A model generated the notes under the pieces. That model worked only from the letters and a program-made list of their open reading frames with translations, was not told the DNA's origin and did not search any database. From positions 1-47,102 of the forward strand of contig SHMU01000006.1 in assembly GCA_008080765.1 (NCBI GenBank): DNA of 47,102 nucleotides. The letters run 5' to 3'. Below are positions 4,190 to 40,207 of the stretch, piece after piece. The stretch comes from Promethearchaeota archaeon (lineage in GTDB: Archaea > Asgardarchaeota > Lokiarchaeia > Sigyniarchaeales > SOKP01). The translations under genes were made by a program, and so were the position numbers. Numbering within the stretch: position 1 is the first letter of the stretch; the number at the start of each line of letters is the position of its first letter.

Positions 4190-4948
4190 TTAACTTCTGC
4201 GTTTCACTATAAGGATAATAACTCCGACTATTATTGCAGCTCCCGCAATCCCCCCGCCAATTAATGAATAGGTTAGGACATCATTATTCTCTTCCCCTGC
4301 GGATTGACTCGCTAACAACAACTCCACGGGTAAGTCTGAAGAAGCTACTGGTGATCTGATAGAATCATCATAATAGGTTGTTAAGGGTACTAGCCACCAC
4401 ACACTAAATATTCTCATAGTCTCGCTTGAATTGAGAGCTAAAACGATTGTTGGAACGAGTAAAGTAATATTATCGTTGCCTACAACTACGATGTCTTCTA
4501 AATAATCATAACCAGAAAAGCCATCTTGCCATGTATTTGTTGTTTTATTCCAGTAATTTTCTCCTGAAGAATTGGTTTTTACCGGTTTTATACAGATTTT
4601 CGAATTATTTCGCACGAATTCAAAACGATAGCTAGGATAATCAATTGTATCTCGATAAAAAAAGCTTAAAGATAAATTTTGATTCATATCATCAATAATT
4701 CCTATTTCTGTTACAGAACGCCAAAACTCAAATGTCACATTTTGTCCTTGAACGGTCAGGCTTTTCAAATCGTAATATTCATTGGGAAAATCAGCATCAT
4801 CGGGATCGGAAATATGAATACTTGCGGATCGGATATCTTTTTCTGGAGGGTTTATCCAATGAGTAGCTTGTAATTGGATATTAGAAAGCAAAAGCAAGCC
4901 AATAGAGAAGAAACTAAATAGAAGTATAAATTTGCAAGACTTTCTCAT
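4190..4948 (-). CDS. Secreted/cell-surface protein with N-terminal signal peptide and C-terminal TM anchor
   Basis: 'KFILLFSFFSIGLLLLSNIQLQA' signal peptide, beta-rich ectodomain with several N-x-S/T sequons, C-terminal 'LIGGGIAGAAIIVGVIILIVKRRS'. Confidence 0.8.
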   Translation of the reverse strand: MRKSCKFILLFSFFSIGLLLLSNIQLQATHWINPPEKDIRSASIHISDPDDADFPNEYYDLKSLTVQGQNVTFEFWRSVTEIGIIDDMNQNLSLSFFYRDTIDYPSYRFEFVRNNSKICIKPVKTNSSGENYWNKTTNTWQDGFSGYDYLEDIVVVGNDNITLLVPTIVLALNSSETMRIFSVWWLVPLTTYYDDSIRSPVASSDLPVELLLASQSAGEENNDVLTYSLIGGGIAGAAIIVGVIILIVKRRS

Positions 4949-5722: not shown

Positions 5723-8700
5723 ATGAATCGACTAATTAAAATCCCTATAATGATCATATTTTTATGCTTAATGCCTTTAATTGTTGGCATCCCAAATATT
5801 GAACGAATAGAACATCCAGAAATTGAATTTAGTTATGTTGATCCTGATTTACGGATGGGATTAGCAGGGTATGAATTTGATCCTGATGATATAGATATGC
5901 TCGAATTTGGTTCCTTTGAGGATACCATCGGAAGTAAAAAACTCACGATTAATGATATGTTCATATCAAAAGTTACTATTCCCTATTTGAAACGATTCCA
6001 ATTAGGTCATATGCTTTACTTCATTTATCCCGGAGATAATGTATTTTGTAATCTCCCATGGCACGAAATTGAAAATGAATATCGATTAGTAAGCAATTAT
6101 ATATTTGGACCTGTAGAAAATGAAACACTATATACCCAATTTAAGTTTAATGAATTAGATCTTATTCCTGGTAATTACACTTTAAAATCTTACTATAGTG
6201 TATTCAGATGTTTTCAATGGCAATTAAGTTATCCAAAAACTTTTAATCTTGAACTTCATAAAGATTCTTTTCATGTTATTCCGCACTTAAAATATGAAAA
6301 CTCTAGCATCACTCCTGGAATTGTGTATACTATTGATAATCTGGATGGATCTTTCACGGTTATATATCGGGGAAGGATTATCAATTCTGCGGGTGAAGGA
6401 GTATCTGGAAAAAGACTCAACTTATTCTTAGAACATTATAATGAATTCAATTCGATTGCTAATATTTCAACAGGACCTGAGGGATACTTCAATTATAATA
6501 AAACGGTATATGGTGCATTTGATGTCAATTCACTTGCCCGAATTACCTTTAACGGCGATTATTTATATAAACCATGGGATCATGTGGAATATGCTGGATT
6601 GGAATATTCAATAAACGGAGAAAGATTCTTTCCTGATATTGATCCAGAAGATGGAATACCCGACTGGCCGTTTGATTGGGATGATCTTCCTCATGAGGAT
6701 CATACGGAATATGAATGGTCTAAAGAAGAGCTTTCATTTCTTGCGGAATTTAATGAGACCGAAGGACAATATACTTATGATTCTATTAATAATCTTCAAG
6801 GGGTCTTACAAGATAATACATCATTTACAAATTATGGACGACATGATAATGGAATGCAATTTGGAGCTATGGGGGGTTCAATATATTTTGACGATATTTT
6901 AGATGAGATTTTAAATAATACAGACCAATTTACTGCAACTGCTTGGATTAAACCTTCTCAATTCAATCTTAATAAAAGTGAAAATGAGATTCAAAATACC
7001 TTTTTATCAAAAGAAGGAATTTTTGAAGTCGGATTTAATAAAAGCGGACTTCAAGTATTCTTAAATACTAATGATGGCGGTGACCTAGCGATGTACGGGA
7101 ATAACAATACCATTATCTTAAATGAGTTTCATTTCATCGCACTAAGATATGATAAAAACGATGTTGATGTGTATATTGATAATACATGGTATTACCATAC
7201 CTCAGCACCAATAGAGGAGCCATGGCTAAACGCTACAAATACTTCATCTAATGGAGGGGATCTAGTAATTGGTTCAGATGCTCATAATAAATCTTATTTC
7301 TCAGGGATTATTGATGAAGTCTCTATTTTTAATACTTCCCTATCAGATTTCGGAATTGAGTATTATAAAGGATTTGATGCCCTAAAAATAGAACCGCAAA
7401 TTCTAAAACCCGATGGAGAGGGGGACTGGACACCAATTGAAAATGAAGAATGCTTGAAAGAAGAAATATTGTTTAAGACATCCATTTTAACGGGAAATAC
7501 TTATATAGATGATGTTAGCTTTTATTTATCCGAAAGTTATCCAGATCTTACATCTCCCGAATTAGAAAATTGGACACTTATTAAGAAATTTGATAAAAAT
7601 CAAAGAGAATATCATTATTTGAAAGATTCTTTTGAACTTCCCGATGGAAATTATTTTCTAATTGTAAAAGCGACTGATATAGAAGGATATACCATATATA
7701 ATGTCGCTAAGAAAAACAGTCAACCTATTTCATTTAAAATTGAAAATATAAATAATTCAATTAATTTTAGTTATGTTGATATTAATGGGAGAATAAATCA
7801 CAATTCACAAATCAAATTATATGCGGAAAATCTTATTACTCCTTATATCAATTCCATAGATCTCTCTCTTACCTATCAGAATAATACTGATCACTTAACT
7901 AAAACTCCAATTCCCTATAGTATTATAAAAGAGAATTATAATCTAATAGAACTAAATTCTATTAGAGAATGGGTAGATAATAACTCGTTGCTTCCTGCTC
8001 ATTATGAAATTTCTCTTGGGGTAAATGTGAGTTTCTATTATCCTGAGTTTGATTCCTATTACAATTCTATATATTATCAATTAGAACCAATTACTCTCGA
8101 TATTAAACCTTCAGATGTATCAATACTCACGGGGGGTGATTATTCCTTGTCCTTTGGAACAATTTATGATGATAAAGATAATTCAATAATCACCTTTGGA
8201 GCACAATGTGATGAATCTGATTTCCATTCTATTGAAGTAAAATATAGATATAATACCACATCTAGTCAAGAGTGGATATCATATAAAACATTTAACCTCC
8301 AACAACCTTCTTCTCTTTTAAATGCAACTATAGATTTGTTTAGCATGAGAGATGACAGTATTAACCTTCAATTTGTCGTGTATGATAATTTGGGAAATGC
8401 TAAAGTTCTTCAAAATATTGATTATTTTCTTATAAAAGATATGAATAATCACGATTTCGATGTTGTGGGCATTAATGATGATATAATTTATGAGACCACT
8501 ACTTTAGGATTCATTGATCCTAATGTATGCATCCTCCCTTATGATAATGATATAGATAAATGTGTAATCTCTACTTCTTATGAAACTTTCGAGCTTACAA
8601 CGAAATATACTGAAGACGAATTTGTATATTTTTCAGATATAGATCCTTTAGAAGATTTTAAATTGGATTCATCTCTTTATAATATTCTTGGCTCCACTTT

Positions 8701-11700
8701 CACTTCGATTCCAATTACAATTGATCTAATACAAAATGATCAAGTGATATATCAGCACATAATCGTTATTACTGCAACAGATAAAACATTCAATGATACT
8801 GTGCAAATAACAGATCTCTCAGTAAATACATCTCTTATAGAAAATAATATATATTTAAGCGTAAATGGTAGTTTGGATATTTATGCAAATCCTCATAGTA
8901 TTCCTTATATTGTGCAAGGTAATGCACCAATTATATACATATATAATCAGTTTGGAACTTTAATTGATACTATTATATTATCTCCCGTTTGCGATGGAAA
9001 TGCATCTCTTACTTATTCTCAGCAAATTGAAATTCATAATAATAAATTTATTGTACCTAAACCAGCATTAAATGAAGGAGATTATATCATTACAATAGAT
9101 GAAGTTATTATTGATAATATTGAATACAATTGCTCTTATTATATTGATGATGATGAAATATTAATAAAGATTTTAGCATTAGAGAATGTAGATGGTTTTT
9201 ATAATGATACAAATCCAATAAAAGTAGATTTCTCATATACTTCATATAATAGATCAAGTGAGCAATATTTTGGGAGTTATAACTTCCAAAAGCTTCCTCA
9301 AGGAATTTATAACCTTACTGCTGTCTTTTATGATATATCACAAGAAGAATCAATATATCATTATAATAATTTAATAATTGACTTTCAAGCAGTTGAAATT
9401 TATCCTCTCTTTGAAGGAGTTCCTCGCATACATCCAGAAACAGGAATGATCTCCTTTTATTTAAATGATGTCTCAGGAATTCAATCTGTTTCATTAAATG
9501 ATACGATTAATGGCTCTTGGGTAATTGATGAAAATTTCTATACATTCGCTTTTAATGATAGTAATCTTAATGATGGATTTCTAGATTTACAGATTATTGC
9601 AACAGACACACTTAATCAAACCTCAACTCTAAACTTCACAATCTTTCTCGATAAAACACCCCCTCAATTTGACATTATGGGGGATTATCCTACTCATTGG
9701 AATGGATTGTATTCTATGCAATTTGAAATTATTGAAGATTCGCCTTATGAACTTCTATTTTCTGTAAGTCATTACAACACCTATTATGATGATCTTCGTT
9801 TTACTACTCTTAGAGAAGGTGATTTGTATGAAATTTTATTTGATTCCTTACAAGTAAATGATGGAAGATATAATATAACAATATTTGCAATTGATGCTGC
9901 GGGTAATATTGCAAACTTCACTTATGAGGGGATTTATTTTGAGAATTCCCCTCCATTAATCCTATCAATAACTGAGAGTGTGTATGTAGATAATACATTA
10001 ATTTATTCTGAAGAGTTTGATGAGATGGTTTATTTTAACGATCAAAAAGTAATTGACATCTTAGCAATTGATCTTGTGAGCGATGATTTTGATTGGATAG
10101 ATGTTAATCCATTATATCAAGAGCAATATGGTGTGAAAGCGATTAATATGTATTATACGGAGCCTTTAGCATGGTATCCTTTGTCAATTGCAGGAGAATT
10201 TGATTATAATATCCTTTCATATAAATTAGAGGGAGATCTTCAAGAGATAAAGTCATTAAAGTCATTACGAATAAAGGATACTATTCTTGATGAGTTTGAA
10301 CTTATTCGCAATGGAGCAGACCTTTATATTCAATTTAGTGAGCAGTATGCTTATTTATTATCTCCAGAAAATTCAGACGATTTAGAAGGATATTATTATA
10401 AGACTGTTGAGACTCCCATATCATTACAATTTAATACAGAAAAGCACTGCTGGGAACTCCTTTCAGATAATTTAAATTATTTTAATATTTCAAACCTATT
10501 CTCTCTAAATCAAGGTGAGCAATTTCTTTTTTGGTTTAACATATCCGATTTTATGAGTGAAATTAACAATAGTTTTTCTGATAATTTATTCATTACAAGA
10601 ATCTATACGGGTATATATGATAATGAAATCGACATAACTGATGATGGAGAATTATTTGAGTGGTCACTTGGAACTACCAGCAATGAGGAGGGAATTATTA
10701 TCTTCGGTTCTGAAGACTATTCTGATTCAACATTAAACCTAAATTCTAGTATCATAATACCAAATAATTACAGTCTCTTCAAGGATATGAACGATGTAGC
10801 TCGAATTCATCTTTATTTCTCAAATGATTCTCAAACTTATGAGCCATTAGGTCGGGCATATTACAGCGGACGAGATGCAATCTGGAATTATTATTGGGAT
10901 TATTCAACAATCCAAAATTATAATGAAACTCTTTTTTATATAAAAGTACTAATATTTGATCCTGCGGGAAATTATATCGAGCAAATCCAACCAGTTCATA
11001 TTTTTGATTATACTGCTATTCAAATGATTGCAAATGATGTATATAGTGCAATCATTAACTATAATGCTAGTGCATTAGAGAATGTAAAAGATTTTCAAGG
11101 TATAATAGAAAATCTTGGAAATAGTAATTTAATTTGGGACTCGGTGGTGCAATATTACCATCCTTTAGAATGCGAATGGTTTCCTCTTTCAACCTCTCCT
11201 ATTCAATTAATTTCTAATGGCACATACCACTCATACGAGATTACATGGGATATCAATATAGATGCTGATTTTTTAAATTCCATTTATAACTTAACCTATC
11301 AATATCTCCCTGTGAAAGTATCTCCATTAACAGAGAATACGGTGTGGGGAAGCTGGGGTCTTTTTGAATCTCATTGGCAACCAATCATCGTATTAAAAGA
11401 GGGGGATTCCGTTAATATTGAAGTTTATAAGTTTAATGAATCTAATGGGTGGGTTTTAGATGAAAAATATAGTTCCCAAGGTTATATTGAATATTTAAAT
11501 GATTCAATTTATAAATTATTCGATATAAATGGGGATAACCTCCCTGAAATTATCCGATTGACCTTATTAAGTATAGACATAATCTATTTTGATGGGGTTA
11601 AATGGGATATCATTGAAAATGCAACTAAACTATCTCAATTTTCCTATTTCACATTTGATGTGTTTAAGGATGTAGATTTTTCTTATTTAATAACTGCTCA

Positions 11701-32700: not shown

Positions 32701-35700
32701 AGTTATCTTGAATTATTCGAGTGGACCAATTTCGGCTTATACTAAAATCATTTTATTAGATCATTTTTATAATGACACTTTATCTAATTATGAACTAAAA
32801 GATACATTTTATAGTTATATAGATATAGAATTTAGCTCCATATCAGAAACAGGAGTAGAGAGAGTTTTAATTGGTGAATCAGCAGATATTATAGCAAGTG
32901 AATATTCTCAATTAAACCCCATTTCATATTGTCGCAATATTCATATATCCACAAATGACATCTTCAATAATTATGGTTCTTCAGCTTATGATTATTATGA
33001 ACTCTACTATGATGCATTTAATATTGTATATGAAGCGGATTCTGATTATGATGGGAGGGGAGAATACAAACATGTCATAGATGTTGATAAAGATGGAATT
33101 TATGATATAATTAAATATGGAGTTGAAAATGAAGAAGAATCTATTATTTGGCATACAATTATCCAAGATTATCATGGATACAAGAAAGAACTCCAAATGA
33201 CAGAAGATGAGCGCGTAGCAACGGATTGGTTTGATCTTGAGGATTCAGAGTTTACAGGACTTGCGGCAAGTATTATTAATCCCTTTGACATTGCAGGGAG
33301 TATCTTAACGGGGTTAGATAGGGATGATTACTGGGGAAAGAAAGTTATAGAATCAGAAACCAAAATTACTCGATGTTCTCAAATTGATTATTATAATCTT
33401 CGATTAGATCTTGATAGAGATGGATATGCAGATAAAGAAGTGACATATCAGAAATTTGATACTGTTGTTGAGCAGGAAATTTCCAAAACTATCAAATTCT
33501 TAATGGCAGCTAAAAAAGTTTCGGGATGGGAAGCAATGATGAGCGATTTAACCCGACTATTCAAGGGAGAACAAATGGATCCCATCTTTAATTACCTACT
33601 CACTGAAAAGGGATTAGATTTAATGGTTCAAGAATTTTGGGAGCTTCCCATTCTTGCTAAATTAGGACTATTATTAAGTGGAAGTGACCTCGCAACTCTG
33701 CTTTTAACTTATAGAAAACTCATTTTGCATGATACTAAAGTTTATAAGGAGCAAGTGAGTTCAGAAGAGCTCACGTATGCAGATTGGGAGCAAGGAATAG
33801 TGAAAGAGAAACGAATCTATACCAATGATTTTTCTGAAGATAATATGGATATGAATAGCAATCTGTTATTTGGTAATATCTTAGCGAGAAATAAGATTAC
33901 AAATATCGAAACGGGAGAATCTCAACAAATTTCCTTTAATCCGTTTATACCCTTTACAGATCCCAAAGATATAGCTTGGTCAAAGCAAACTTGGGGTCCT
34001 GATAATGTACCCATCTATTATGATTCTTTAACCATGATGAATGATGAAGATGAAGTTGAAACAACAAACTATTACGAGCGTACGATTACTATTAATTTAT
34101 TCACCAGATCCTCTCTTCTATATGGTTATGGAGACTTATTTGCTCCCGTTGGAGCTTCCCATATTAACAGATTTGAGCTTACTGGTGTTTTTATTACGCC
34201 ACCTGATGGGGTATATTTCTCAAGTGATAAAGAATATTTCCTTTTAGGGGCAAAGATTCCTGGGCATTATTTCTATTATGATACAGCAGAAGGAGAAAAA
34301 GATGGATATTATGATACTGTTTATATTCTTGCTCCGGGGGAAAATCCCGATGGATCATATAATGTAATAAGTCTTGCTTTTAATTATGATGGAAAACATG
34401 ATATAAAACCTTATACTATTATCCATGATTTAGATCTATCTGTAGATGCAGAAGAAGTATTCATGATCTCTCTGCTTACATACGGGCATCCATTTGCCGA
34501 AACCATCCGAGATTATTTTGCAGAAGAATGGCTCAAAATATTCGAGCTTCGACCCCAAGATTCTATATTTGAAGTCTATAAATCCGTTTTATCGGCAGGA
34601 ACACATCCCTTATTGTTTGAGATTGCAAGAACAGAAACTTACACTCGGTCATGGAATATTTTCGGAGAAAGGATGCTGGAAGATATTTTAGAGCAGACAC
34701 TAATTACTACGACTTCTATGGCAATTGGATTAGTTGTAAAAATATTGATGTATTCCAATCCGTATACAGCCCCATTGGCGAAAGTGACCAGCGGACTTGC
34801 ATATTTCACATGTTATTCGATATTAACAAAATATTTCATGGATGAAAAGGCACATTTAGCTTCAACCGAACAGAAAGCTTATACATTCTATACATTTGGA
34901 AGTAGACTTCCAATTTCACTAAATGATAGGGCTTTTAGTGACCGATTACTACGTGATAGTCAAGCGGCGGCGTTAATGGGACATCCCGCAGCTTATTATA
35001 CTACAGTTCGCGGGGGAGCAACAGGATATGAATATACTGCTGAAGTCATTACTTCGCCACCGAATCAAGCACGAATGTGGTCTGCAATGGCAGGATTACC
35101 ATTATACATTGTCACTTTAAGACCTGAATTTTATCTTGGATTAGATTTTGATAATACGGTCATTGATTATGAACAATTCACATCCGAGCTTTATGCTTAT
35201 AATGATTATCCATTCTATACCTATTATCATACTTATAGGAGTGAGCTTCCAAAAATGTATGATACATATCAATATAATACTTTAGGGTACGTAGAGCAAA
35301 AAATTACAGGAGCAACATTAGTAGCAAATCTAATTTCTCCAGCAGAACCGATTTTAAATGAGATACGACCTGTATGCGTCGATGGAGTACCCCAATATAT
35401 TTTCGATAAAGAATCTATTATTTCCCATGAAAATCCTCTTTATAAGCCAATTGTCCTTTCTAAAGAACGATATATGATATTAGAACGATACGGAATGATT
35501 ACTCCCGGACATTTAGGGATAATAGTAAAAAATTGTGAAGTGCTTAATTCTTTAGGACTAGAGCCCTATGCTATGAAAGCTACTGAAGCCACAGAGTTTG
35601 GAGCCAAAATCCCCTTGTCTATCGGAAAGGGATTTGACTATCCAATAATTTCTATTAACCTTAATATTAAACAGGGGTCAAATACCATCGATACAATTCC

Positions 35701-38700
35701 TTTATCAGAAGATATTTATACCATTAAAGATGGGAATCTATATTTAGATACTTCTTTAGAAGAGATTTCATCAAAATCAAATAAATATAGGACTTTATTA
35801 ATCCAAGGTGGGAACAATGTTTACTACTATATAGAAATCATTTTCAAGCGGTTTGTAAGTATGGACTCTTTAAATCCTTCAGATCCTAGTTATCAAGATT
35901 ATATAAATTTGGCATTAATTCAAGCAAATCAGTATGCAATAATGGACATCATGCATCAAAAGACTTTTGCGGAAGTTTCATCACAGATGATTGCGGAGAT
36001 TGGATACACTGAAGTTTTAACTTTAGCTTCCACAGCTCTTACAGCAATGGCGATGATCTTGGATTCTTGGAGTACGCAAGCTCTCCAAGAAGCGTATAAA
36101 AAAGTAGGACAAGAAGCAACTAAATCTTTCTACAAAACGTTTATATCCACATTCAAAAATAATATTGTCCAAAAATTCAGTAAAGATTGTGCTACAAAAT
36201 TATTAGGAGAGCTTGCAATGGCATTCATTATTAATCCTATAAATGAAATGCTTGAAGAAGTAATAAGAGATGCAGTTATTGAATCTTTTGTTGAAGGTTT
36301 TGTACGAGAGATGGGAGGTAGTGAGAATTTAGGCTTCTGGCTGTCTAATTTGGCAACTTCCTTAAGAGAAACAGTTAGTTTTTCAAAAATGAGTGAGGGT
36401 ATTTCTCGAATCTCACAAGAATATAAGTCAAATAGCATCAATTCCCGAATTGCCGAGATTAAATCCAACATGGAAGGAGAAGAGATCTCACAAAAGGAAC
36501 GGACAGAATTGGCAGAGGAGTTAGATCAATTAAATAAGGAATCTCTATCATTATATTCCTCTGAAGAGAAAAGTGAACAACTGTCATCAGTTTCAAAATT
36601 ATGTGGAGGATTAATTACCTTATTAAGTTCATTATCATTTAATCTCGGTGGCGGTATTCTCCTCTCAAGTATGACTAAATTCCTTAAAACCTCTTTCGGT
36701 CCTTATTTCAAGCAAAAATTCATAGATATCTATACTGAATTAACATCTAAAAAAGATACAATTTCAAAACAAAAAGAAAAAGGAAGAGTATTAACCACTA
36801 AAGATTTAAAAATTGATGAAAAAATATCATTAGATAAAGATCGCCCTCCCATTCCTATGGACATAGATCAAGATACTTATAGCAGTTCGGAAGTTAGAGG
36901 AGGTCCAAAGATCTTTAATACATATGATTCAATTAATTCTGAGAAACTCAAAACATTATTAGATCAGATTAGGTTGGATAGATATTATAAAAGATATGTT
37001 CAAAAAGAAAATGTGTATCAAGAAAATGAATATGTTAAAGATAGTATAGATAAAATCGTTAGAAATTCAGAAGATCTGGATTTACATGGAAAAGGTGAAG
37101 AAATATTTGGAATCTTGTTTGATGCAAAAACTGAACTTATAAAAGAGGGTTTTTCTATTGATGCTCGTGTATTTGATATGTATAGTTTATGCTTTATAGA
37201 TCCTGATACAATGATAGTAGGCTTAACTGAGGATGATTTTGAATCATTCTGGGAACTGAGTGATGCAGAGTTAACAGCAAGAGGGTTTAATACCAGAGAA
37301 ATGCAAAGAGCATATACAAGAAAGACTGGGAAGGATCCCTATTATCGAGGTGACTTGTCAAAACCATACAAATCTTTTCTGAGAGATGAATTTTCATTTC
37401 AATTTGGAAAATCTTATCGTACAGCAGAAATCAAAAATTATAAATTAATGAAAGGTGCTAGTCTATCTCAAATAACTTATGAGATTAAAACAAAATTATT
37501 AAAAAGAAATAGACAAAATATTGATTTAGGATTAGTAATAGTAGAAGGTAAGACTGTTGTGCCAATTCCTCCTAATACTGCTAATGTTTATGATTATTGC
37601 ATTTCACATGGAATAAATAATATTGCACTTTCTAAGATGATTTTTTATCCATCTCGATTTATTCGGGTAGAAGGAGGCACTAGACCGCTTTTTATTCAAA
37701 CACCGAATTGGGAGACCATGGTTCGAAATGGAAAAGCTGGATCACCATATTATAAAATGTTCTATGATTTAAGGGATGACTTTATACCATTTTTAAATAG
37801 TCTGGGCTTTAATGTCAAGGAATATTCAGATGTAGAAAAAACTTTAGGGATGGCAAAGAAATCTTATATACATTTACTTAAGAAACTAAAAGTGGGAAGC
37901 TACCAAGAGCGAGGAACACTAAAATTCTACTTCCAACCAGAAGAAGAGTTTATAGTTCGCTGGGAGTCTTCATTATTAGTGAAACTCTATCGAGAAGGTA
38001 TAAAAATAGGTTCGATTAACGATAAAGGGGAAGTTGCGCCAGAACTTGAAAGAAAACTCAAAATGGTTAAAGATTATTTTGAACCTATTTATTCCCTACT
38101 AGGATATACAAGACCAAATATTTATTACAGAGATGCATATCGGTTCCTATATATGATTTCATATACATTATATGATTATGGAATTGTATCTTCTCCCTAT
38201 CCAACTACGATAGATAAATTGATTCATGGTAAAAAACATGATTCTGGTTATAGATTAATATACAAGTTTTTAAAAGATAAGGATACTTACGAAACTACAG
38301 AATCGGGAAAAGCAACATTATTCTGGAATGACGTTATTCATCTACTTGATAAGAACTTAAGAACTGGAGTAATAGATCAAAATAAATATAATACAATATT
38401 ACGAGAACTTTATGAAATAAAAGTTGGCGAAAAATGGGAGGAAAATCTATTTAATCCCGTTAGAAAGTTCGATTGGTTAGATTATTCTAATACCAATTTT
38501 GGAAAGTTTTTTATAGATTTATTCAAAACAGAGCCTTTCAAAACTTTTTGGGGGGGTCTATCCAAAACATATATTTCTGAACTCTTGTTTGGCAATTATG
38601 CTTACGTATCAGCTCAGATTTCAGGAGGGGGGGAAGCTAGTATTTCAAAATTAATAGAAAGTATATGTCGAGTCCTTAGTCTAAGTCAAGAAGATTTTGA

Positions 38701-40207
38701 TTATACTATTTCTGATGATGTATTAAGAGTAATGAAAGAGACATATATTATGAAAATAAAAATATATATTAAAAATTATAAAATGAATATGGATCTCCCA
38801 CGAAGTTTTGATTTAGATCCTTTCAATGAAGAATTATTTTTTGATACTAAACTTGATGTGTATATCTATGTATATTTATCATATTTAGTGCACAATAATA
38901 TCTATTTTACCCAAGCAGAAAATGTAAATGATTTAATGGCTAATTTTAGACAGTTTTTACCACTTCCGTGGACATCGTCTGCGCCAACCTTAAAAGCGAC
39001 TGCTGATGAGATTCTTAGGTATATTGATGATAACATAAAAGATTATTACTATACGGATATTTCTTATGAAGATTTTGCACGAAAAAATGAGATTTATCAA
39101 CAAGCATTATATTACATTAACAAATATATTACAGATTTTAAATTATCTCAAAAATCAAGTTATGAGCTTCTTTCAAAATACGAATTTACTTCTATTACTC
39201 AACTATTACAACATGCGAAATATATGTCAGAAGAAGTCTTTGAAAACCTAATCAATGAGATTTTCAGCGCGAGTAAAACTGCTAAAAAAACCTTAGGATT
39301 ATATAAGAAATATTATGCAAAAGATCCTGAAATAGTAGATATCTTGGCTCCTTATCGTTTGACTGCTAGTCAAATGACTAAATTTGATGGTATTTCCATA
39401 GATCACTTCAAGGAATTTATAGAATATGCACATGAAGCAGACGCTTTTAATTTGTATCTTTATGGTAAAGAAGCTCTTTCTGATAAAGATTTCTCCGAGA
39501 GTTTTATTGAATTGATTGAAAGAATTCAAGAAAATGAATTTTTTGATCCTAATAAAAAGTCTCACACACACCGTACGTCTTACGTAGATACGACTGAAAT
39601 CCTTCGATCAATGGGGGAATATCTTACTCATGAAAAACCTAGTTTGGGAAAGGCTCAAGTAACCCAAAACTCTTATAGATATTGGAACGCATTTATAGAC
39701 CTTTATCTGCATGAATTAAAGGGTATGAATAAATTTGCGATAAGAGATTTTAAACCCCGATGGAATTCAGAAACTTCTGGGAATTTAGATTCCCATTTTA
39801 TAAATACATTTCCTCAGATAATCGTTTATTGTTTAAATGAATTAGCCGTTTTGGAAGCTGGTATAGATATCAAAAAGGATAAAATAGATATGAATGGGGG
39901 GGCTTTCAATGAAAAAGAAGCAGTTGAAATTAAACCTAGAAAGATGTATATTTTACTTTTTGATTTACTACTGAATGTAGAGAGTTCTGAATGGCATAGA
40001 AGATTGGAAAAGAATATTAATTTAGAAACTGATTATGAAGTAGATTTGCCAGATATTTATAAAATGTTTTTTATCGATTTTTGGAAAATTGGAAACATTA
40101 AAAACTTTCTGGAAGATTCCGGCTATTCCGAGAACCAAATTGAAGATTATGAAAATAAAATAAAATCTTTACAAACACAGATTGGAGACTTGATTCCTAC
40201 TCCCTAG
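5723..40207 (+). CDS. Giant (11,494 aa) secreted/cell-surface multidomain adhesin-like protein with hydrophobic block and long alpha-helical C-terminus
   Basis: Single open frame of 34,485 nt. N-terminal 'LIKIPIMIIFLCLMPLIVGIP' signal peptide; numerous beta-sandwich-type modules; abundant N-glycosylation sequons; C-terminal hydrophobic segments. Coding nature supported by consistent domain-like motifs along the whole length. Confidence 0.93.
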   Translation: MNRLIKIPIMIIFLCLMPLIVGIPNIERIEHPEIEFSYVDPDLRMGLAGYEFDPDDIDMLEFGSFEDTIGSKKLTINDMFISKVTIPYLKRFQLGHMLYFIYPGDNVFCNLPWHEIENEYRLVSNYIFGPVENETLYTQFKFNELDLIPGNYTLKSYYSVFRCFQWQLSYPKTFNLELHKDSFHVIPHLKYENSSITPGIVYTIDNLDGSFTVIYRGRIINSAGEGVSGKRLNLFLEHYNEFNSIANISTGPEGYFNYNKTVYGAFDVNSLARITFNGDYLYKPWDHVEYAGLEYSINGERFFPDIDPEDGIPDWPFDWDDLPHEDHTEYEWSKEELSFLAEFNETEGQYTYDSINNLQGVLQDNTSFTNYGRHDNGMQFGAMGGSIYFDDILDEILNNTDQFTATAWIKPSQFNLNKSENEIQNTFLSKEGIFEVGFNKSGLQVFLNTNDGGDLAMYGNNNTIILNEFHFIALRYDKNDVDVYIDNTWYYHTSAPIEEPWLNATNTSSNGGDLVIGSDAHNKSYFSGIIDEVSIFNTSLSDFGIEYYKGFDALKIEPQILKPDGEGDWTPIENEECLKEEILFKTSILTGNTYIDDVSFYLSESYPDLTSPELENWTLIKKFDKNQREYHYLKDSFELPDGNYFLIVKATDIEGYTIYNVAKKNSQPISFKIENINNSINFSYVDINGRINHNSQIKLYAENLITPYINSIDLSLTYQNNTDHLTKTPIPYSIIKENYNLIELNSIREWVDNNSLLPAHYEISLGVNVSFYYPEFDSYYNSIYYQLEPITLDIKPSDVSILTGGDYSLSFGTIYDDKDNSIITFGAQCDESDFHSIEVKYRYNTTSSQEWISYKTFNLQQPSSLLNATIDLFSMRDDSINLQFVVYDNLGNAKVLQNIDYFLIKDMNNHDFDVVGINDDIIYETTTLGFIDPNVCILPYDNDIDKCVISTSYETFELTTKYTEDEFVYFSDIDPLEDFKLDSSLYNILGSTFTSIPITIDLIQNDQVIYQHIIVITATDKTFNDTVQITDLSVNTSLIENNIYLSVNGSLDIYANPHSIPYIVQGNAPIIYIYNQFGTLIDTIILSPVCDGNASLTYSQQIEIHNNKFIVPKPALNEGDYIITIDEVIIDNIEYNCSYYIDDDEILIKILALENVDGFYNDTNPIKVDFSYTSYNRSSEQYFGSYNFQKLPQGIYNLTAVFYDISQEESIYHYNNLIIDFQAVEIYPLFEGVPRIHPETGMISFYLNDVSGIQSVSLNDTINGSWVIDENFYTFAFNDSNLNDGFLDLQIIATDTLNQTSTLNFTIFLDKTPPQFDIMGDYPTHWNGLYSMQFEIIEDSPYELLFSVSHYNTYYDDLRFTTLREGDLYEILFDSLQVNDGRYNITIFAIDAAGNIANFTYEGIYFENSPPLILSITESVYVDNTLIYSEEFDEMVYFNDQKVIDILAIDLVSDDFDWIDVNPLYQEQYGVKAINMYYTEPLAWYPLSIAGEFDYNILSYKLEGDLQEIKSLKSLRIKDTILDEFELIRNGADLYIQFSEQYAYLLSPENSDDLEGYYYKTVETPISLQFNTEKHCWELLSDNLNYFNISNLFSLNQGEQFLFWFNISDFMSEINNSFSDNLFITRIYTGIYDNEIDITDDGELFEWSLGTTSNEEGIIIFGSEDYSDSTLNLNSSIIIPNNYSLFKDMNDVARIHLYFSNDSQTYEPLGRAYYSGRDAIWNYYWDYSTIQNYNETLFYIKVLIFDPAGNYIEQIQPVHIFDYTAIQMIANDVYSAIINYNASALENVKDFQGIIENLGNSNLIWDSVVQYYHPLECEWFPLSTSPIQLISNGTYHSYEITWDINIDADFLNSIYNLTYQYLPVKVSPLTENTVWGSWGLFESHWQPIIVLKEGDSVNIEVYKFNESNGWVLDEKYSSQGYIEYLNDSIYKLFDINGDNLPEIIRLTLLSIDIIYFDGVKWDIIENATKLSQFSYFTFDVFKDVDFSYLITAQIDNLGEYSIWKYIFTSDFELQVVRYMNAPEDLTPTALHINYIMSASEPSILLGGRMGDSYTSQLFLYDFNLNFIEIISNYILGKISLIKSETINGIDTILVGIERLAIGQMDIILTFHYDYLLQEWIKYQISDFGDRQFRLIDLLAITEGNTQKLIIASNNGIFTTQINFNTDIQTITSPKLFVVDTFSKSELSLDGTRYIQVELFNTPIESIKNIFYKKDGAWTPLDSRNYEHSKFEVKLYLDQEIYDNFEEIKIYYTFISFSQEEKSIIDPSFNTLEGIVNTPSIRASSIIYDESELPLLWLNPTTPLEGTSSTQDWKLFSDLSDWNSRGINYHYSPLLSGPGSFAEYPSVETEWTEISNSNPYELFKTNELENSLINYGDNYDSGELSQDLRGYGDFEENNYIDGVYLSNPLLSESYDFTELYQAGIHNEEDNLDNVYNYYEGSQKIIVQNELIDYNLLADLSDTNIISAGEFPSFDVLFSGKEFANNWDFDGSDEIDNDKIKSVDYQYWSTSSPVPQATANIIRGYSQSTDTYYMESEYDADIFDYLIDVYHGIILTFDTNVDRFGEEKIKDINLNINWRAYMKEGTAPSSGDINYIQILNLQSEVWETIDSNNYDSTSYREDTLNLKDLICNGNIDNIDEYIEDSTGKVKIRILNKGRTVDINPGLATDYYWNARIDILNPNTYISIEHSYDDVLYEDNTLLQDAYVVSWFYTATNFGNEPYLVVGDQRFGWPPVIRYYLYTYLHANISSSYLTESYAENPDLYLYCTSYGRDVWLAPMDMLRLYNTTEFYESTITWNNKPPSTGILGDYYNYEDHTWISMDLPLDQEYFLLEPSYTELKQAEFHSTEHSWNKPYTRNYINKFFQNDNYVYMQTDDYQELSLISPTFEDTYLEMGDFFILDLQTNQNDLKLELLYNGEVQKEISVYEQNDWYERQTRGAYIDEDVKFNQIKLIASLQPTDYVKIFNIEAGRVYKSPNIQTKELESVLNDEGDEYLSLFMATAGQNYGVELTQNLPMTDREGFDSLLVSFDASIFSQYSQSDLDLPLSVQMYNYKSGEWESIPIFPVVTNLADTLAGYNQELLDYSFWRWKKEITEFGSLSGFRPRWTSIIENGYFDRTGIMGSETTNQGQISVLSDTQAPYPQQIRWTKDTTEDADWHGTWGNRDIMDLSVGDTFVYSGYYKTSNTGTCDTLRLDMRMTNWDRISNYEDINLIEDGQWHYFETIIRPNIKYSGEIVWLFEWGDGSGGHLELCGLTVSKENLNTISFGSTFPASISDSKLWFDNTEFDPTLGACFLDNRQQQPHKLNSYWAYKHYSDYEGFRTKTLYYDSDYNSHKFQFSPIEIDPHNFYTSTEDFPDAQSIDMQFSKANFFDDFIKNGREIKIRLITNKLGSGEYMCIGDFKTHTLTNSSYLNYDNFDYAYDLVETTRFPDKIDLKEDGVYLYGQSSFNFDTQQNLIEKFQTDLNFYFDSYDTIMKPILLYEPIQLYAGDEIIVTCKPFTSNDIILSLGSPNYQQAYQLLLLENQNKNFETRKIRLNVPQDILLDSITFMGQLGRNEFLNICSVSIMGFDRDPRIDAFIEKIDMRKVEVIDGIEVSDSSYENAEETDLQYWSINSEYKSEHELTIETWFSTLSPEQLLDAKKLQIRLNAYSNQLPLIMFSYSFWNFGTGRYEVITPIFEEETGDVLFEFERDIFNEKLFNTENNTYMLQFKIQCKWNQPFSLNIDSLYANIVGLWNNAYDLYQAKFVFSKVQSVQNGQITLMLDDDVFITLDDEDLRPPEWGENEVVFYYNSSSELWNIYVNYDKTIRSTTPPNKTIYDPFPKIPIPRIITDYSQDNDGIIFHTIDSLFYRRIQNEYDFESYKHLIACSRKEHIDFRDFGDSNIITQSKHTFTQVSSDIRVLYSFQDEMIPENIFSYNLIPEYMDNDTLDNFFLNKHEYYENVIPLTKFNLLEAEYHSPINILGKSFFEADSHLDALKPSNDTLYSMNPCLWGYSVSEDLDNLDIGATSGLDIISAEREWSFNLPSEYEEYYDDEQEHNGRWHHANIYADISTGGGPLTPLTGYALLSASLDVWDYAVGSFKTVSTWGVIPMVTPDGIPYPIIDSKDDVMYIDTSSLTDPIADNGQMNFRFTYIGMKQGDWITIWADFGDFKIDLYFESHLNATLEFEEDVLDGETDYALFFLGKTDSFSLSKPEVRIKREGEEAWERVFEFTDEWSLHSVYSLDNPTALNIYFPHYPSYTPSISLDDFFLFKMDSISESNFSIDDCKCIEIESSRAKNYTGIVGNEDSENYMRFYNDPIFGNNNLEFTLRNTIITPTFGRSDEVFTDLELDDLNLDFHLYTQNFPSSSDFVEGFDPTKYDIDTLNYSEGRFKHSAIDEIQVPLITPIQLTFEEDLALLNDASLQLELALFEEISIQNRKYNDEWGLRHRLVYYNHSSESWEDFDGIININSNGITRSVWTPENEDLSNPLYYIQEPDLNYFVPLYDTNDISLFNPFLLKNLHSGILKDNQISLAWISYIFPYNLSERPFERENSSIPIFISQEIDVKECVLLQDYMPVVYSESTFSSTQELNDDFEIPLNILEPKVGEIVKVIGHYRTIDGILENHPIFNYYITNDGKLSIKFCNKRDLFTNITIYYTPLVKFKHVSEGSIEKWYAPESIGLYSSPYFITNVQDSEKSYGSAIHPSLPTNITFSEDDQGPYIMFKNGIIPIDDVYGAVHYAKYDEAYTFSHPIEDYILCPHEILENQDNLIDGKLSIDIKVGFNDVKYSELSQVDAQDYHIKVQLYLRDEKGQTTYIGKKKYSLSSDSLDFSLHRLNISLSSFNLIEKGMSLIAQALTKDLNNDLLIKVSSQIANVKVNGPLFRGYYAQQIINSTFSAQTTNEQKNYNGYSVTQDYIQESQQNVALTFIQQGKYTFNSELLKYNELFELISLKAGNIHVNEKDYIFNQAEQTITLLGNYSSFSGILLANISYQAFQWKHNRISTLEPIIISFPSQNYIEQYTKYLEFCIDFNSIPGFEVWNFDPITGEQILTQEEKSANLLSLYLFNFATYIWDKVNPIIYEAYNTTFSYVLDRKNIQFENYYNRTSEGFQVKAILAVESEEGIEEYFSVSSSLDINGISANLYYNLPKTEYYMNPSVMFDIDVSKYLKNEDNILQELTINLNYQSNLEMADALMQYALIEEQYSFFLQDKYLHFTEFNLTDGISLTLSKEQLEGLVFHSKEHDAYYLRGKLEYDWNCIMEMNLQNVNAEITASLSLNYYDMIAKYTSIDTTQISTFNLNGVNANSYELQEIQAPNYVENDGSIQMMEDDSISDIGILGGFLRNSPSKQRLMIKQQLYNRFEEAQEYESQDILIEQRYNDYILRFNTPIGYLNSPTISYVANNQNFIFTTCYQVKNVSFYYFNESISEYYYLDEFISEQNDHEHWSLELINISELTGIGNNETLQVKITLEDFFGNTNDYIFNYTTDYEAPLLQIFIGDGSESFEHPSNNIATPSIPIMFNHNELLDTVSTHQYRIIDLTTGLNTEWIDFKIEDITIIGNLAKELPQNFTIEYKVIDICGNTAINSTYNNDYRQICYSSEIDIVWNENDNTINLSSQEFSERELTFEGDFGGIDTLDVKINGFHFGSAVKISSDNIYSINFGTENTMNTIIGYSDSLLNSKIFSNNNPANHYCWDTRRENMFGVTKHVLIDGDLYIVNPLTDNKTVVMDLNYLYERGFSLPEFVNIHEAYYYNKSADYSKESISFGHYLVDRDGKVAFPKNSIIHLLYNESQHIAGQKIYFDYTSSPFAESLRLLNAEGFFINISIPALYYRHTTLEKLTVLFNDIMGNTYSKTFYDLDLRKYFMDTVKEQYEHIVFGMGKMMNLQLFIDMNELRLSNPDAGGVFDLALLDSISFQIADNKRWPTSFMEYNEDYSVLNLPYQRFAVHDIRLYNYLSDIVHTDEEGLVSSTIELIASENYNYHANDQIKIARQVIPITELKIFHNREEITGQEQTIPQVEYSDKIEIYFKYNHSNEQIPFDDISNPLLTLINRDTNEIISLSNCYYITKFDEISPDGYYKGYYYGEFDLPKRLGTYSLKIGSNGTPIQDFVMEEKEFEIEVIQEKVSNIYLEDNTFELNYGEDSLILEGCILDNDNTLMEDEVYEYKWEEAYDGETSHILNFQFPYGDRNFIDKNQFIIYYLTENLEKKPLYVNYEGEYFKNNSILAEKNPQINFVNNQFILTIYWKKGMEETASFINYDTNLLVSYKLLRGNPISPVSYSSFDTSEHSNFDNLVNVPFKQYDMITNTWKSEGNFIETFQIEKQLIEKEVQYTSTPQIIIEGPKYENGGENITLGITYLHSISINNSETIFYRTLDSSKYNWSIDENGRLIIDYQDFKADDTLIVSYHSYHPVLLSHPIAENDPSSYIKSLNISRISTQKITYQFNSAEFTISEDGYRLYFHDLYNSVIKNNFSLTDNFEISYHAPFDKKIDLSKNLILSLLNEQGEYIAFDTVSLDSLGFFKYENSFDKNGLNLHLQYGTTINTLRLSYLPLEINRQLLDYTQDEEPIYSHQQGVWEKYIQVVAEGTKAKLKLVNYATQDMVVSQSFIRERQYHFNKNPLEALEEGQEYTSLSFDVLAKEDYEFTYKLTDWNDNPLQDAIIWMHIGFMPKSKTGFINEKAVLDDGTPIYYESLGTELLTSIGPGEMPNKMFSRPLVYPIQYPNTEKSNYGPLIWDFAKTNEFGEVTFDISFDHDYIEQFADIFGTIEGMNSIEDIVLYHRAFLAPFEWNKMIINDPNQFVSSASGKVFNSTESVPEYNEQQQILTDPTYVEGLIRIHKGDIALGGGDYLSYKLPDLTIFEHLEDLSFPIYVTEANPIPTDVSTTLEGLTKIYEATELEATSKNILDDDYNYRVLIDIFNPSGENVFEHTTMYDIEKTANGGRITITNETMRRIIEQLGSGISTIKIQVAESEYYKESHPIYIPLEIVPPNYLRFGEKNMHIDVISPFVSAWGTARDSDNNEMIFESNYPVLSGAVWMEPDFNGEGEELELNKNDEIQVDLDCILHNDDGTHTRFTLRDDVLLSSGNLDGIMTFELPLGPEDAFLMGLECDLNISFDIDYYTKDNIFEENRDITIYLLDLRLEANPSSSTPKTYWSLYRDGIISPTEKVNIEQSSGFEINEGNLELGKSTEDYSYGQPFYNIYYEDKNEYGFEQESPLLDLIALSNIIPLSIVGIKDGNTYEFKKDMDWEIINSQSDELYKNTLIRFIENTPDVGTEFAIYYNFIFDFDSNNYAKIMLGSTNSLNESSIEIQLDDGFLPPSNESRAPMFTEFREKFDDTVATEFDLNYGKVDLTEDEFIIYNKEELNKTGDLTIFITENKFIHLSFENPPDDFTVMYGIKSQYELGFGFQKVNKTYSNSIRELFNCESSIIVDRNYNELSALELDETALYIGLDNLNESTKVIIQDLPLLHSPELNFSFVLDDLLMNYLRNFAGEPNTLTFQFEYDFGESYTYQSESEEILLDYDEIVNYYDAGENGSYYFNFNKEFQELYDFLGATKIDVIITISQKGNNNNVIPYLILKKMDYLSDTRILEMYDNMPYTKNGQLDVKSVLNTPHYLQILTLPFRDSNTFDFENMPDSPFNLLENSEITVSISDLPHSALAALHITQNEIEKLGDKVTLPVNDENFNIIMNLALFTDAYNIEETIYQQGYIDLYYGSGTEIDGENYYTTNLTLSREGVGDYQSEISNHNPISWMNEYAFTNKFISTDDINVYGNVFYHELFNLSSHSYDVLNQTQIASLFDFDLYDTTIYFGLRLSHHDVQTLDSIHFPCNYSLSIHGFPIGEYEWEQLKYIEIINNTFNCECESYDLSSISCLSQNDYALAEYYGVPYILFFQPIETIRQYCDEEGLIMVDFHAKEIFDEGFDYSIHESTAKGIPSTIEWNFSYENFTNYNLHPDFNEDHFFTISYPALEWDQFDEMYIRNTTDEFIFQPKEVFNISSIYFRDVYKINISIEHEIPEREWSLGTQLFRKIYLLLQNKNNKYYTKQISIPNLNFIIQDTNKSYIYEIDFDALNEYISINYPNYQIKDETYIFFEASYDSDELRYELSQVPFNYQFIESNDPEHHITLYINGQFVCTSNEALFNEYVYAIKHGYIYFSEYAQNDLLNPGDKVKVEYNYKMSPHLLERKELLMTIYPWSNRFNTPINNLLSSGTTSSSTQSTYRERWRKLSGGSLIMPFEYSLNIDDIYSLYLSYRLNQRDYYEEKFEVDYGSDYTYEIIEDNLKSTVSLLNHSVQVFYYDYNNEIQFLKEDYFEVNYELGTLKLLRDISKDGTYDRNPITAFNALDEFYVSYKPIAIDQEVLTYKFTNYRPNHDATDQNLEVDNWKVYGENVSQVLPNFDAFYFMDEEESDYSKYICYASQLGVYLKEGDLLEFDIENELEGIDEDLLSKIHQGQFKALHINTKIENLESLDYLLVTLKNHQNISISEQYFTREDLLLLENEININLPQSPNTLKYVTFEPFSREDGKYTSENKKGMPNIQFATWEDDKTTIIDNSDYLSIVLEEDLLTDPGSLEIAYIFNEKLEQFNFPDYYPIKWKYEDEVYFLQIPHQYIDSTDPSVLKCFEDGEQLIIRYQTPIKKGISIGFGKMYFDKNENLDIPPIECLLINANKTTEQYYHEFTKDYYYSLEIPLTPFDTEFSGTYGTAKLDIDLSDLEEFADDSREIDFSNLLFTVNDPSYELSINEFVLVDSVQNPIRSYDSVNLNRIWEYTEIEEYVSDENPIDDEYYFDFENPHLFYELPNATWLQYIKVYDSDGNYYSAGESGDQHQLHYDNKTNTFSWNENYTYQELLGFIFEDKKIIEANTELFIEYCINTSWQHPITINKENIDVKSLLLKYSCDIDEYYLLGTHDELASVLSPEYDITQYYQENFNVYRQTDSYTCNLSISDYAGNLTLIDDFMNVSLYSVIGIKVNFESDELIDNPDFAVSFNIEDESIAITDLNPSDGLLDVFDTISVILNYSSGPISAYTKIILLDHFYNDTLSNYELKDTFYSYIDIEFSSISETGVERVLIGESADIIASEYSQLNPISYCRNIHISTNDIFNNYGSSAYDYYELYYDAFNIVYEADSDYDGRGEYKHVIDVDKDGIYDIIKYGVENEEESIIWHTIIQDYHGYKKELQMTEDERVATDWFDLEDSEFTGLAASIINPFDIAGSILTGLDRDDYWGKKVIESETKITRCSQIDYYNLRLDLDRDGYADKEVTYQKFDTVVEQEISKTIKFLMAAKKVSGWEAMMSDLTRLFKGEQMDPIFNYLLTEKGLDLMVQEFWELPILAKLGLLLSGSDLATLLLTYRKLILHDTKVYKEQVSSEELTYADWEQGIVKEKRIYTNDFSEDNMDMNSNLLFGNILARNKITNIETGESQQISFNPFIPFTDPKDIAWSKQTWGPDNVPIYYDSLTMMNDEDEVETTNYYERTITINLFTRSSLLYGYGDLFAPVGASHINRFELTGVFITPPDGVYFSSDKEYFLLGAKIPGHYFYYDTAEGEKDGYYDTVYILAPGENPDGSYNVISLAFNYDGKHDIKPYTIIHDLDLSVDAEEVFMISLLTYGHPFAETIRDYFAEEWLKIFELRPQDSIFEVYKSVLSAGTHPLLFEIARTETYTRSWNIFGERMLEDILEQTLITTTSMAIGLVVKILMYSNPYTAPLAKVTSGLAYFTCYSILTKYFMDEKAHLASTEQKAYTFYTFGSRLPISLNDRAFSDRLLRDSQAAALMGHPAAYYTTVRGGATGYEYTAEVITSPPNQARMWSAMAGLPLYIVTLRPEFYLGLDFDNTVIDYEQFTSELYAYNDYPFYTYYHTYRSELPKMYDTYQYNTLGYVEQKITGATLVANLISPAEPILNEIRPVCVDGVPQYIFDKESIISHENPLYKPIVLSKERYMILERYGMITPGHLGIIVKNCEVLNSLGLEPYAMKATEATEFGAKIPLSIGKGFDYPIISINLNIKQGSNTIDTIPLSEDIYTIKDGNLYLDTSLEEISSKSNKYRTLLIQGGNNVYYYIEIIFKRFVSMDSLNPSDPSYQDYINLALIQANQYAIMDIMHQKTFAEVSSQMIAEIGYTEVLTLASTALTAMAMILDSWSTQALQEAYKKVGQEATKSFYKTFISTFKNNIVQKFSKDCATKLLGELAMAFIINPINEMLEEVIRDAVIESFVEGFVREMGGSENLGFWLSNLATSLRETVSFSKMSEGISRISQEYKSNSINSRIAEIKSNMEGEEISQKERTELAEELDQLNKESLSLYSSEEKSEQLSSVSKLCGGLITLLSSLSFNLGGGILLSSMTKFLKTSFGPYFKQKFIDIYTELTSKKDTISKQKEKGRVLTTKDLKIDEKISLDKDRPPIPMDIDQDTYSSSEVRGGPKIFNTYDSINSEKLKTLLDQIRLDRYYKRYVQKENVYQENEYVKDSIDKIVRNSEDLDLHGKGEEIFGILFDAKTELIKEGFSIDARVFDMYSLCFIDPDTMIVGLTEDDFESFWELSDAELTARGFNTREMQRAYTRKTGKDPYYRGDLSKPYKSFLRDEFSFQFGKSYRTAEIKNYKLMKGASLSQITYEIKTKLLKRNRQNIDLGLVIVEGKTVVPIPPNTANVYDYCISHGINNIALSKMIFYPSRFIRVEGGTRPLFIQTPNWETMVRNGKAGSPYYKMFYDLRDDFIPFLNSLGFNVKEYSDVEKTLGMAKKSYIHLLKKLKVGSYQERGTLKFYFQPEEEFIVRWESSLLVKLYREGIKIGSINDKGEVAPELERKLKMVKDYFEPIYSLLGYTRPNIYYRDAYRFLYMISYTLYDYGIVSSPYPTTIDKLIHGKKHDSGYRLIYKFLKDKDTYETTESGKATLFWNDVIHLLDKNLRTGVIDQNKYNTILRELYEIKVGEKWEENLFNPVRKFDWLDYSNTNFGKFFIDLFKTEPFKTFWGGLSKTYISELLFGNYAYVSAQISGGGEASISKLIESICRVLSLSQEDFDYTISDDVLRVMKETYIMKIKIYIKNYKMNMDLPRSFDLDPFNEELFFDTKLDVYIYVYLSYLVHNNIYFTQAENVNDLMANFRQFLPLPWTSSAPTLKATADEILRYIDDNIKDYYYTDISYEDFARKNEIYQQALYYINKYITDFKLSQKSSYELLSKYEFTSITQLLQHAKYMSEEVFENLINEIFSASKTAKKTLGLYKKYYAKDPEIVDILAPYRLTASQMTKFDGISIDHFKEFIEYAHEADAFNLYLYGKEALSDKDFSESFIELIERIQENEFFDPNKKSHTHRTSYVDTTEILRSMGEYLTHEKPSLGKAQVTQNSYRYWNAFIDLYLHELKGMNKFAIRDFKPRWNSETSGNLDSHFINTFPQIIVYCLNELAVLEAGIDIKKDKIDMNGGAFNEKEAVEIKPRKMYILLFDLLLNVESSEWHRRLEKNINLETDYEVDLPDIYKMFFIDFWKIGNIKNFLEDSGYSENQIEDYENKIKSLQTQIGDLIPTP
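6340..6610 (+). other. Ig-like/CNA-B-like domain in giant protein
   Basis: 'GSFTVIYRGRIINSAGEGVSGKRLNLFLEHYNEFNSIANISTGPEGYFNYNKTV' follows the 'G..i.d..G.pv.g..v.l......t...G.f' pattern. Confidence 0.5.
6706..7380 (+). other. LamG/concanavalin-like jelly-roll domain in giant protein
   Basis: 'GRHDNGMQFGAMGGSIYFDD...FTATAWIKPSQFN...EFHFIALRYDKNDVDVYIDNTWYY...GGDLVIGSDAHNKSYFSGIIDEVSIFNTSLSD' carries the hallmark LamG 'G.iDEv.iyn.aLs' ending. Confidence 0.85.
9460..9980 (+). other. Tandem bacterial Ig-like domains in giant protein
   Basis: '...LDLQIIATDTLNQTSTLNFTIFLDKTPPQFDI' and '...RYNITIFAIDAAGNIANFTYEGIYFENSPPLILSI' (classic 'a.D.aGN......vD.tPP.v'). Confidence 0.8.
11360..12220 (+). 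other. Beta-propeller/VCBS-like region in giant protein
   Basis: Repeating 'LFDINGDNLPEIIRLTLLSIDIIYFDGVKWDII', 'FDVFKDVDFSYLITAQIDNLGEYSIWKYIF', 'IILTFHYDYLLQEWIKYQI', 'LIIASNNGIFTTQINF'. Confidence 0.5.
13770..14190 (+). other. DNRLRE-like domain in giant protein
   Basis: 'LLQDAYVVSWFYTATNFGNEPYLVVGDQ...PPVIRYYLYTYL...MLRLYNTTEFYESTITWNNKPPSTGILGDYYN' matches the DNRLRE pattern ('da.v......nyG....l.vG', 'l.f.l..l', 'vTWnn.P'). Confidence 0.8.
15010..15500 (+). other. CBM-like (carbohydrate-binding jelly-roll) domain in giant protein
   Basis: 'ENGYFDRTGIMGSE...DLSVGDTFVYSGYYKTSNTGTCDTLRLDMRMTNWD...LIEDGQWHYFETIIRP...GGHLELCGLTVSK' resembles CBM4/9-type 'NGdFE.....G....SGw.k.......DG.W.......' modules. 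Confidence 0.6.
33038..33433 (+). other. DxDxDG calcium-loop cluster in giant protein
   Basis: In-frame 'DSDYDGRGEY' (33038), 'DVDKDGIYD' (33080-33106), 'DLDRDGYAD' (33407-33433). Confidence 0.7.
34700..36700 (+). other. Hydrophobic (possible TM) block in giant protein
   Basis: Hydrophobic stretches 'MAIGLVVKILMYSNPYTAPLAKVTSGLAYFTCYSILTKYF' (~34718-34840), 'VLTLASTALTAMAMIL' (~36000-36065), 'LLGELAMAFIINPI' (~36200-36245), 'LCGGLITLLSSLSFNLGGGILLSSM' (~36598-36675). Confidence 0.55.
36930..40204 (+). other. C-terminal ~1,090-aa alpha-helical domain(s) of unknown function in giant protein
   Basis: Abrupt switch from beta-type, Asn-rich sequence to helical, Lys/Tyr-rich sequence after a charged linker ('SKKDTISKQKEKGRVLTTKDLKIDEKISLDKDRPPIPMD'). 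Confidence 0.6.

Follow-up and report, generated by a model that had tools for sequence, protein, structure and literature searches.

CdiA, the toxin of contact-dependent inhibition, carries a nuclease at the C-terminal end of a surface arm and is encoded next to an immunity gene, and typical polymorphic toxins are far smaller than the protein considered here, a giant of 11,494 residues encoded by a single open reading frame (ORF) of a Lokiarchaeal genome. The window analysed, 47,102 nt, is one entire contig (SHMU01000006.1) of this genome, which measures 3.9 Mb and is 73% complete. We propose that the ORF very probably encodes a giant membrane-tethered polymorphic nuclease toxin, accompanied by a leucine-rich repeat (LRR) immunity protein. 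As in CdiA, taken as generally known, an arm with a terminal nuclease is combined with an adjacent gene, but the giant has no detected two-partner secretion (TPS) domain, CdiB-like partner or filamentous haemagglutinin (FHA) repeats, belongs to an archaeal host, and begins with an N-terminal transmembrane (TM) or signal segment.

Bacterial polymorphic toxins (Zhang et al. 2012, PMC3482391) join a long conserved exported part to swappable C-terminal toxins of several nuclease folds, have stand-alone cassettes and carry the partner gene immediately downstream, and the Lokiarchaeal locus is alike in all of this; classical systems of this type are generally scarce in archaea (PMC3482391). Unlike them, the giant shows no RHS or FilH repeats, HINT, other pre-toxin domain or known secretion class, and its partners are mostly LRR proteins. 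Pfam and NCBIfam gave no match in it to TPS, RHS, FilH, LXG, PVC or HINT modules, which are common in polymorphic toxins and not required of all members. Because the organisational features are present and the known trafficking modules are lacking, we set the locus apart as a variant of polymorphic toxins.

The nearest archaeal parallel is VARTIG of the Thermococcales, a large surface protein of the immunoglobulin (Ig) type in which the C-terminus is hypervariable and the genes downstream vary, and whose authors point to a resemblance to polymorphic toxins (PMC8416519, in the sections available). In VARTIG an Ig domain makes up the variable part, whereas here it is a predicted nuclease, VARTIG is confined to Thermococcales, and no LRR partners are described in those sections; VARTIG proteins are defined by the variable C-terminal Ig domain and homology to arCOG07710, and on the first of these the giant, with its predicted nuclease tip, would differ from them. 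Aloposons of Heimdallarchaeum comprise tandem giants of 3,000-6,000 aa that are integrated at tRNA genes together with a MinD/ParA ATPase, and their authors also mention giant genes elsewhere in Asgard archaea that are unrelated, without a toxin function (PMC8813620). Giant Asgard proteins mostly without known domains are common to both cases, but here we find a single 11,494-aa gene, no tRNA in the window, and no adjacent MinD/ParA or second giant gene.

A literature search returned no polymorphic toxin of such form for Asgard archaea, mention elsewhere being possible, and what we call new is the delivery body, the extreme size, the Asgard host, the LRR partners and the glycosylation-evading tips. 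If the proposal is true, the closest archaeal relatives of eukaryotes would be seen to possess a killing system of a new type, with toxin bodies of 9-15 thousand residues that far exceed the usual sizes. Part of the LRR repertoire of these archaea would gain a function in strain-specific self/non-self immunity, and in the near-total lack of glycosylation sequons from the tips exported effectors would have a signature that is sharp, independent and reusable.

A single 34.5-kb frame conserved among Lokiarchaeota

The first-pass annotation of this DNA, made from the sequence alone, had described an uninterrupted 34.5-kb frame, and this was borne out: the gene runs from an ATG to a stop codon with neither an internal stop nor an N in its 11,494 codons, and the open frame totals 11,504 codons, with just 10 of them upstream of the ATG. 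As about 8% of random codons are expected to be stops (an estimate from the base counts of the window), a chance origin of the frame is excluded. RNA folding near the start codon revealed structure within the chance level. In alignments, the N-terminal hydrophobic segment (Table 1) corresponds to the last TM segment of the several that some other giants have at the N-terminus, and no trace of a lost multi-TM N-terminus was found directly upstream of the start. By its sequence the segment is compatible with the signal peptide claimed in the annotation, and equally with a membrane anchor. The same annotation was right in its picture of a giant, archaeal (Lokiarchaeota), surface-exposed and mostly undescribed protein, whereas its claim of recognisable extracellular modules throughout was overstated and did not hold past residue ~2,820. 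No credible Pfam match was found in residues 4,501-11,494, a Pfam YL1 match (E 0.046) and an NCBIfam type III translocon match (E 0.11) in the C-terminal part were taken as chance, and sequence searches of the PDB with the tip and the arm as queries gave no match.

When the C-terminal 2,494 residues were used as the query, 27 of 97 related genomes gave matches, many of them within open frames of 9,240-14,833 codons. Homologous giants were recovered as single ORFs of 11,373, 13,767, 12,736, 14,832, 11,220, 12,880 and 9,218 aa, together with two further giants of more than 12,600 aa that extend beyond the retrieved region and with shorter family copies of 1,400-2,560 aa; the giant gene of G054 C74 includes a masked stretch. 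The search for homologues of the same order that the annotation had proposed thus found co-linear single-ORF giants (9,218-14,832 aa) on contigs of eight other Lokiarchaeota metagenome-assembled genomes (MAGs), and every named record is a Candidatus Lokiarchaeota or Lokiarchaeia MAG, with differing projects and assemblers behind them. As co-linear homologues occur in these independently assembled MAGs, an assembly chimera was ruled out. A viral or mobile origin was likewise rejected, with no relatives in IMG/VR (one pattern scan) and no tRNA in the window. A second, strongly diverged giant with a 9,130-codon open frame and an arm ~25% identical was observed in G049:C41 (L171-L172).

Variable and exchanged tips on a conserved arm

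In up to nine giants, identity to our protein is ~35-50% over most of residues 400-10,060, with the exception of residues 2,400-4,000, which are less conserved or rearranged. Taken together, it stays level at ~40% along the arm and collapses past residue ~10,200: it drops from residue ~10,060, and past ~10,550 there is little or none in most homologues. A single-sequence search found the tail of the giant in just two genomes of the family, and a profile of its tip end matched 5 of 228 Asgard genomes, versus 31 for the pre-tip profile (30 of the 65 own-family genomes in the searched set and one from a neighbouring family). A single-protein contig search with the C-terminus gave zero matches because the tip is rare.

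Comparisons at the DNA level point to exchange of the tips. In G054, the family genes on C74 and C66 are 87% identical over a stretch of 1,951 nt that reaches up to the tip, and show no similarity thereafter. Between our gene and that of G004, from the same genus, the tip is 71% identical over 1,562 nt and the LRR gene that follows it 69% identical over 921 nt, with only 24-28% protein identity in residues 10,200-10,800 ahead of the shared tip. The tips of the diverged giant in G049 C41 and of G040 C48 share 34% identity, and their partner genes are homologous. Moreover, a stand-alone ORF of 748 aa in the same genome as the giant (G000:C4) consists of a tip without the pre-tip domain, followed by an LRR gene, and a tip copy in G001:C15 sits behind a frame broken upstream. 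Two features by which polymorphic toxins are recognised, an exchangeable C-terminal domain on a conserved exported body and stand-alone cassettes, are therefore found here. The first interpretation had correctly seen a giant surface protein and overlooked the variable nuclease tip on its conserved arm; its coordinates contain this tip, which spans the last ~500-1,150 residues, and omit the linked downstream LRR gene.

Nuclease signatures of the tips

From its sequence, the tip of the giant is predicted to be a PD-(D/E)xK nuclease. It contains the E...D...(D/E)xK...QxxxY motif of this superfamily (PF12705-like), with E11304, D11326, D11342-x-K11344, Q11365 and Y11369 as core residues; E, D, D-x-K and Q are kept in 5 of 5 aligned members and Y in most. 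With the tip profile, G001:C15 is matched at E 7e-18, a site that also passes, independently, the cut-off of PF12705 PDDEXK_1 (E 7.7e-6). An hhalign comparison of the enlarged tip set with PF12705 members gave 61%, aligned exactly on the catalytic columns, versus less than 1% for each of three controls.

Other tips carry different signatures. G015:C6 has a GIY-YIG domain that passes the Pfam cut-off and shares its frame with a pre-tip match, PBECR1 is matched below threshold in G000 C37 (E 7e-4), further tips show sub-threshold PRTase-CE and S24-like matches, and tip class T7 (G054 C66, G056 C143) has an HNH-like motif, recognised by eye only. A toxin domain of a known class, a further mark of polymorphic toxins, is accordingly present, as PD-(D/E)xK by transitive profile match and hhalign and as GIY-YIG in a relative. 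Diverse activities are supported by these matches, and since the majority of tips are without a Pfam match, this diversity is largely uncharted; PADLOC gave matches to the tips at chance level only. In L116, a LAGLIDADG_3 domain (9395-10654, E 1.7e-7), which may represent an intein or else a second cargo, lies upstream of an end judged by eye to be barnase/EndoU-like.

A downstream partner that follows the tip

In 41 family genes a further ORF starts within about 200 nt downstream. As the partner was taken as the longest ORF within 300 nt, a choice that tends to yield some neighbour, its bare presence is weak evidence, and the strong part lies in its identity. Of the 41 partners, 27 contain LRR motifs; among the neighbours of other genes on the same contigs, the figure is 6 of 277 (Fisher p-value: 2.7e-23). 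Pfam LRR families are matched by 26 of 40 partners. Furthermore, the best partner match carries the same tip type in 22 of 30 cases, versus a mean of 1.7 and a maximum of 9 in 5,000 label shuffles, a covariation that is inflated to some degree by shared ancestry. However, G036 and G056, which both carry tip type T5, are unlike in the remaining tail and share a 180-aa partner at 67% identity, and tip type T2, from three genomes, has one LRR subfamily as partner. Of the linked immunity gene expected directly downstream in polymorphic toxins, the linkage and the tip-specific covariation are seen here. Judging from these patterns, the LRR gene probably shields its maker from its own toxin. At L037 (G000:C37), a second LRR gene lies downstream of the 2,222-aa gene and resembles partners that belong to another tip class, whose toxin is absent there; it is a candidate orphan immunity gene.

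Absence of N-glycosylation sequons from the tips

The sequence N-x-S/T, where x is not P, is the signal for N-glycosylation, and the genome under study encodes STT3/AglB. We counted these sequons against the expectation from composition. The last one in the giant lies at residue 9,017, and none is found in the 2,477 residues after it. Across 41 family proteins, the last 1,000 residues hold 7 sequons versus 285 expected (ratio 0.02) and the last 300 hold 0 versus 70, and seven further genes, from outside the set on which the idea was formed, have 1 versus 27 expected. The arms of six giants have 1.16 of the expectation (1.45 for N-x-T), and the ratio is 0.90 for cytosolic ORFs of the same contigs, 1.04 for ORFs with an N-terminal TM and 0.82 for the partners. 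A nucleotide or codon cause was rejected, as control motifs are normal in the same last 1,000 residues (observed/expected: S/T-x-N 246/286, QxS/T 181/184, NxxS/T 282/294). Because such pressure would not act on a cytosolic domain, and glycans would do no harm to an ordinary ectodomain, the tips appear to be exported and yet kept bare; we infer that they pass the oligosaccharyltransferase as they cross the producer membrane and afterwards have to remain bare, for translocation or for work in the cytoplasm of another cell.

In the same 41 C-termini N-P-S/T occurs about twice as often as expected, as if proline had disarmed sequons, but the arms show a similar excess, which makes its meaning uncertain. 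The whole arms of L043/L044 (G036 C75) and L048-L049 (G020 C21) are sequon-poor (0.21 and 0.42 per 100 aa), in contrast with the other giants.

Proposed system and alternatives

In the proposed system, the N-terminus would insert the protein into the membrane, through one TM or signal segment here and several in other giants, and a glycosylated, beta-rich arm of ~9,000 residues would be exported and project from the cell. The conserved pre-tip domain, which we propose to be a translocation or presentation domain, would present or translocate the cargo. On contact, the exchangeable C-terminal nuclease, here of the PD-(D/E)xK type, would enter the cytoplasm of the other cell, cut nucleic acid and so kill it, and the cytosolic LRR protein would neutralise the matching tip when delivered by kin. 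With less assurance, though still on the favoured side, we extend this to a general picture in which Lokiarchaeal contact-dependent killers of 9,000-15,000 residues have tips shaped to evade the N-glycosylation of their producer and have strain-specific LRR immunity, and in which sequon voids mark exported archaeal effectors genome-wide.

Several observations weigh against this proposal. Pfam and NCBIfam scans revealed none of the known secretion, Rhs, TPS or HINT modules, and the translocation role is a guess, since the hydrophobic helices of the pre-tip domain, the obvious candidate for membrane passage, are modelled with low confidence and the domain had zero Foldseek matches in the PDB at E<=0.001. 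The AlphaFold model of the tip (pLDDT 37) was not used, so that the nuclease fold rests on sequence. LRR motifs are missing from 14 of 41 partners, some partners of the LRR type lie in convergent, not co-directional, orientation, and the genomes compared are MAGs.

The LamG and CBM96 domains, the long ectodomain and the sequon content of most arms, at or above expectation, would also suit a giant adhesin or S-layer-like contact protein, for example in syntrophy, with the C-terminus as receptor-binding tip and the LRR protein as chaperone or adaptor. This is unlikely, because the tips carry catalytic nuclease motifs and, unlike the arm, have no sequons, the partner type follows the tip type, and stand-alone tip-plus-LRR cassettes exist. 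A secreted nuclease that scavenges extracellular DNA, from which the cytosolic LRR protein would protect the producer before export, would agree with the predicted activity of the tip, account for a protective partner and fit the life of Lokiarchaea, which inhabit sediments. We consider it improbable, as swaps among unlike tip classes, a PBECR RNase-like tip and lineage-restricted tips on one arm would be left unexplained. It is even harder to believe that the C-termini are selfish elements of the homing-endonuclease type invading the 3' ends of giant genes: GIY-YIG, LAGLIDADG_3 and PD-(D/E)xK are indeed homing-endonuclease classes as well, but such elements predict no tip-matched partners, no RNase-like tips and no sequon avoidance, and all three are observed. 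A polymorphic toxin with LRR immunity is the reading that we retain.

Features of the locus and neighbouring genes

Table 1. Features of the giant gene and its partner, with positions in the window.
Feature	Residues	Positions	Strand	Basis or remark
Giant ORF, 11,494 aa		5723..40207	+	Frame reading; co-linear homologues
N-terminal hydrophobic segment; signal peptide or membrane anchor	5-23	5735..5791	+	Kyte-Doolittle 2.56
Laminin_G_3 (LamG)	396-542	6908..7348	+	Pfam E 1.6e-15, over cut-off
Big_3_3 Ig-like, weak match	1369-1429	9827..10009	+	Pfam E 1.7e-5, below cut-off
CBM96 / DNRLRE	2700-2820	13820..14182	+	Pfam E 6.7e-9
Best conserved arm segment, no known family	6605-6950	25535..26572	+	~50% identity among giants
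Sequon-free zone	9018-11494	32774..40204	+	No N-x-S/T
Conserved pre-tip domain	9845-10260	35255..36502	+	Confident beta domain, then low-confidence hydrophobic helices
Variable C-terminal tail	10350-11494	36770..40204	+	Single-sequence search: own genus only
Tip portion of tip-plus-partner DNA unit shared with G004	~10973-11488	39239..40186	+	70.9% DNA identity
Predicted PD-(D/E)xK nuclease core	~11290-11440	39590..40042	+	Motif, profile, hhalign
LRR protein, 355 aa, proposed immunity protein		40272..41339	+	65 nt downstream of giant ORF

After the LRR gene, positions 41454-41732 (+) hold a 92-aa cysteine-rich, zinc-ribbon-like ORF. The complementary strand encodes a protein with a PIN_4 domain (1345-2517, E 2.4e-11) and a 252-aa putative surface protein with an N-terminal signal and a C-terminal TM, divergent from the giant gene (4190-4948). 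Also on this strand, positions 42220-46491 encode a 1,423-aa secreted protein with FG-GAP repeats, an alpha-alpha toroid of the prenyltransferase type and a C-terminal hydrophobic segment.
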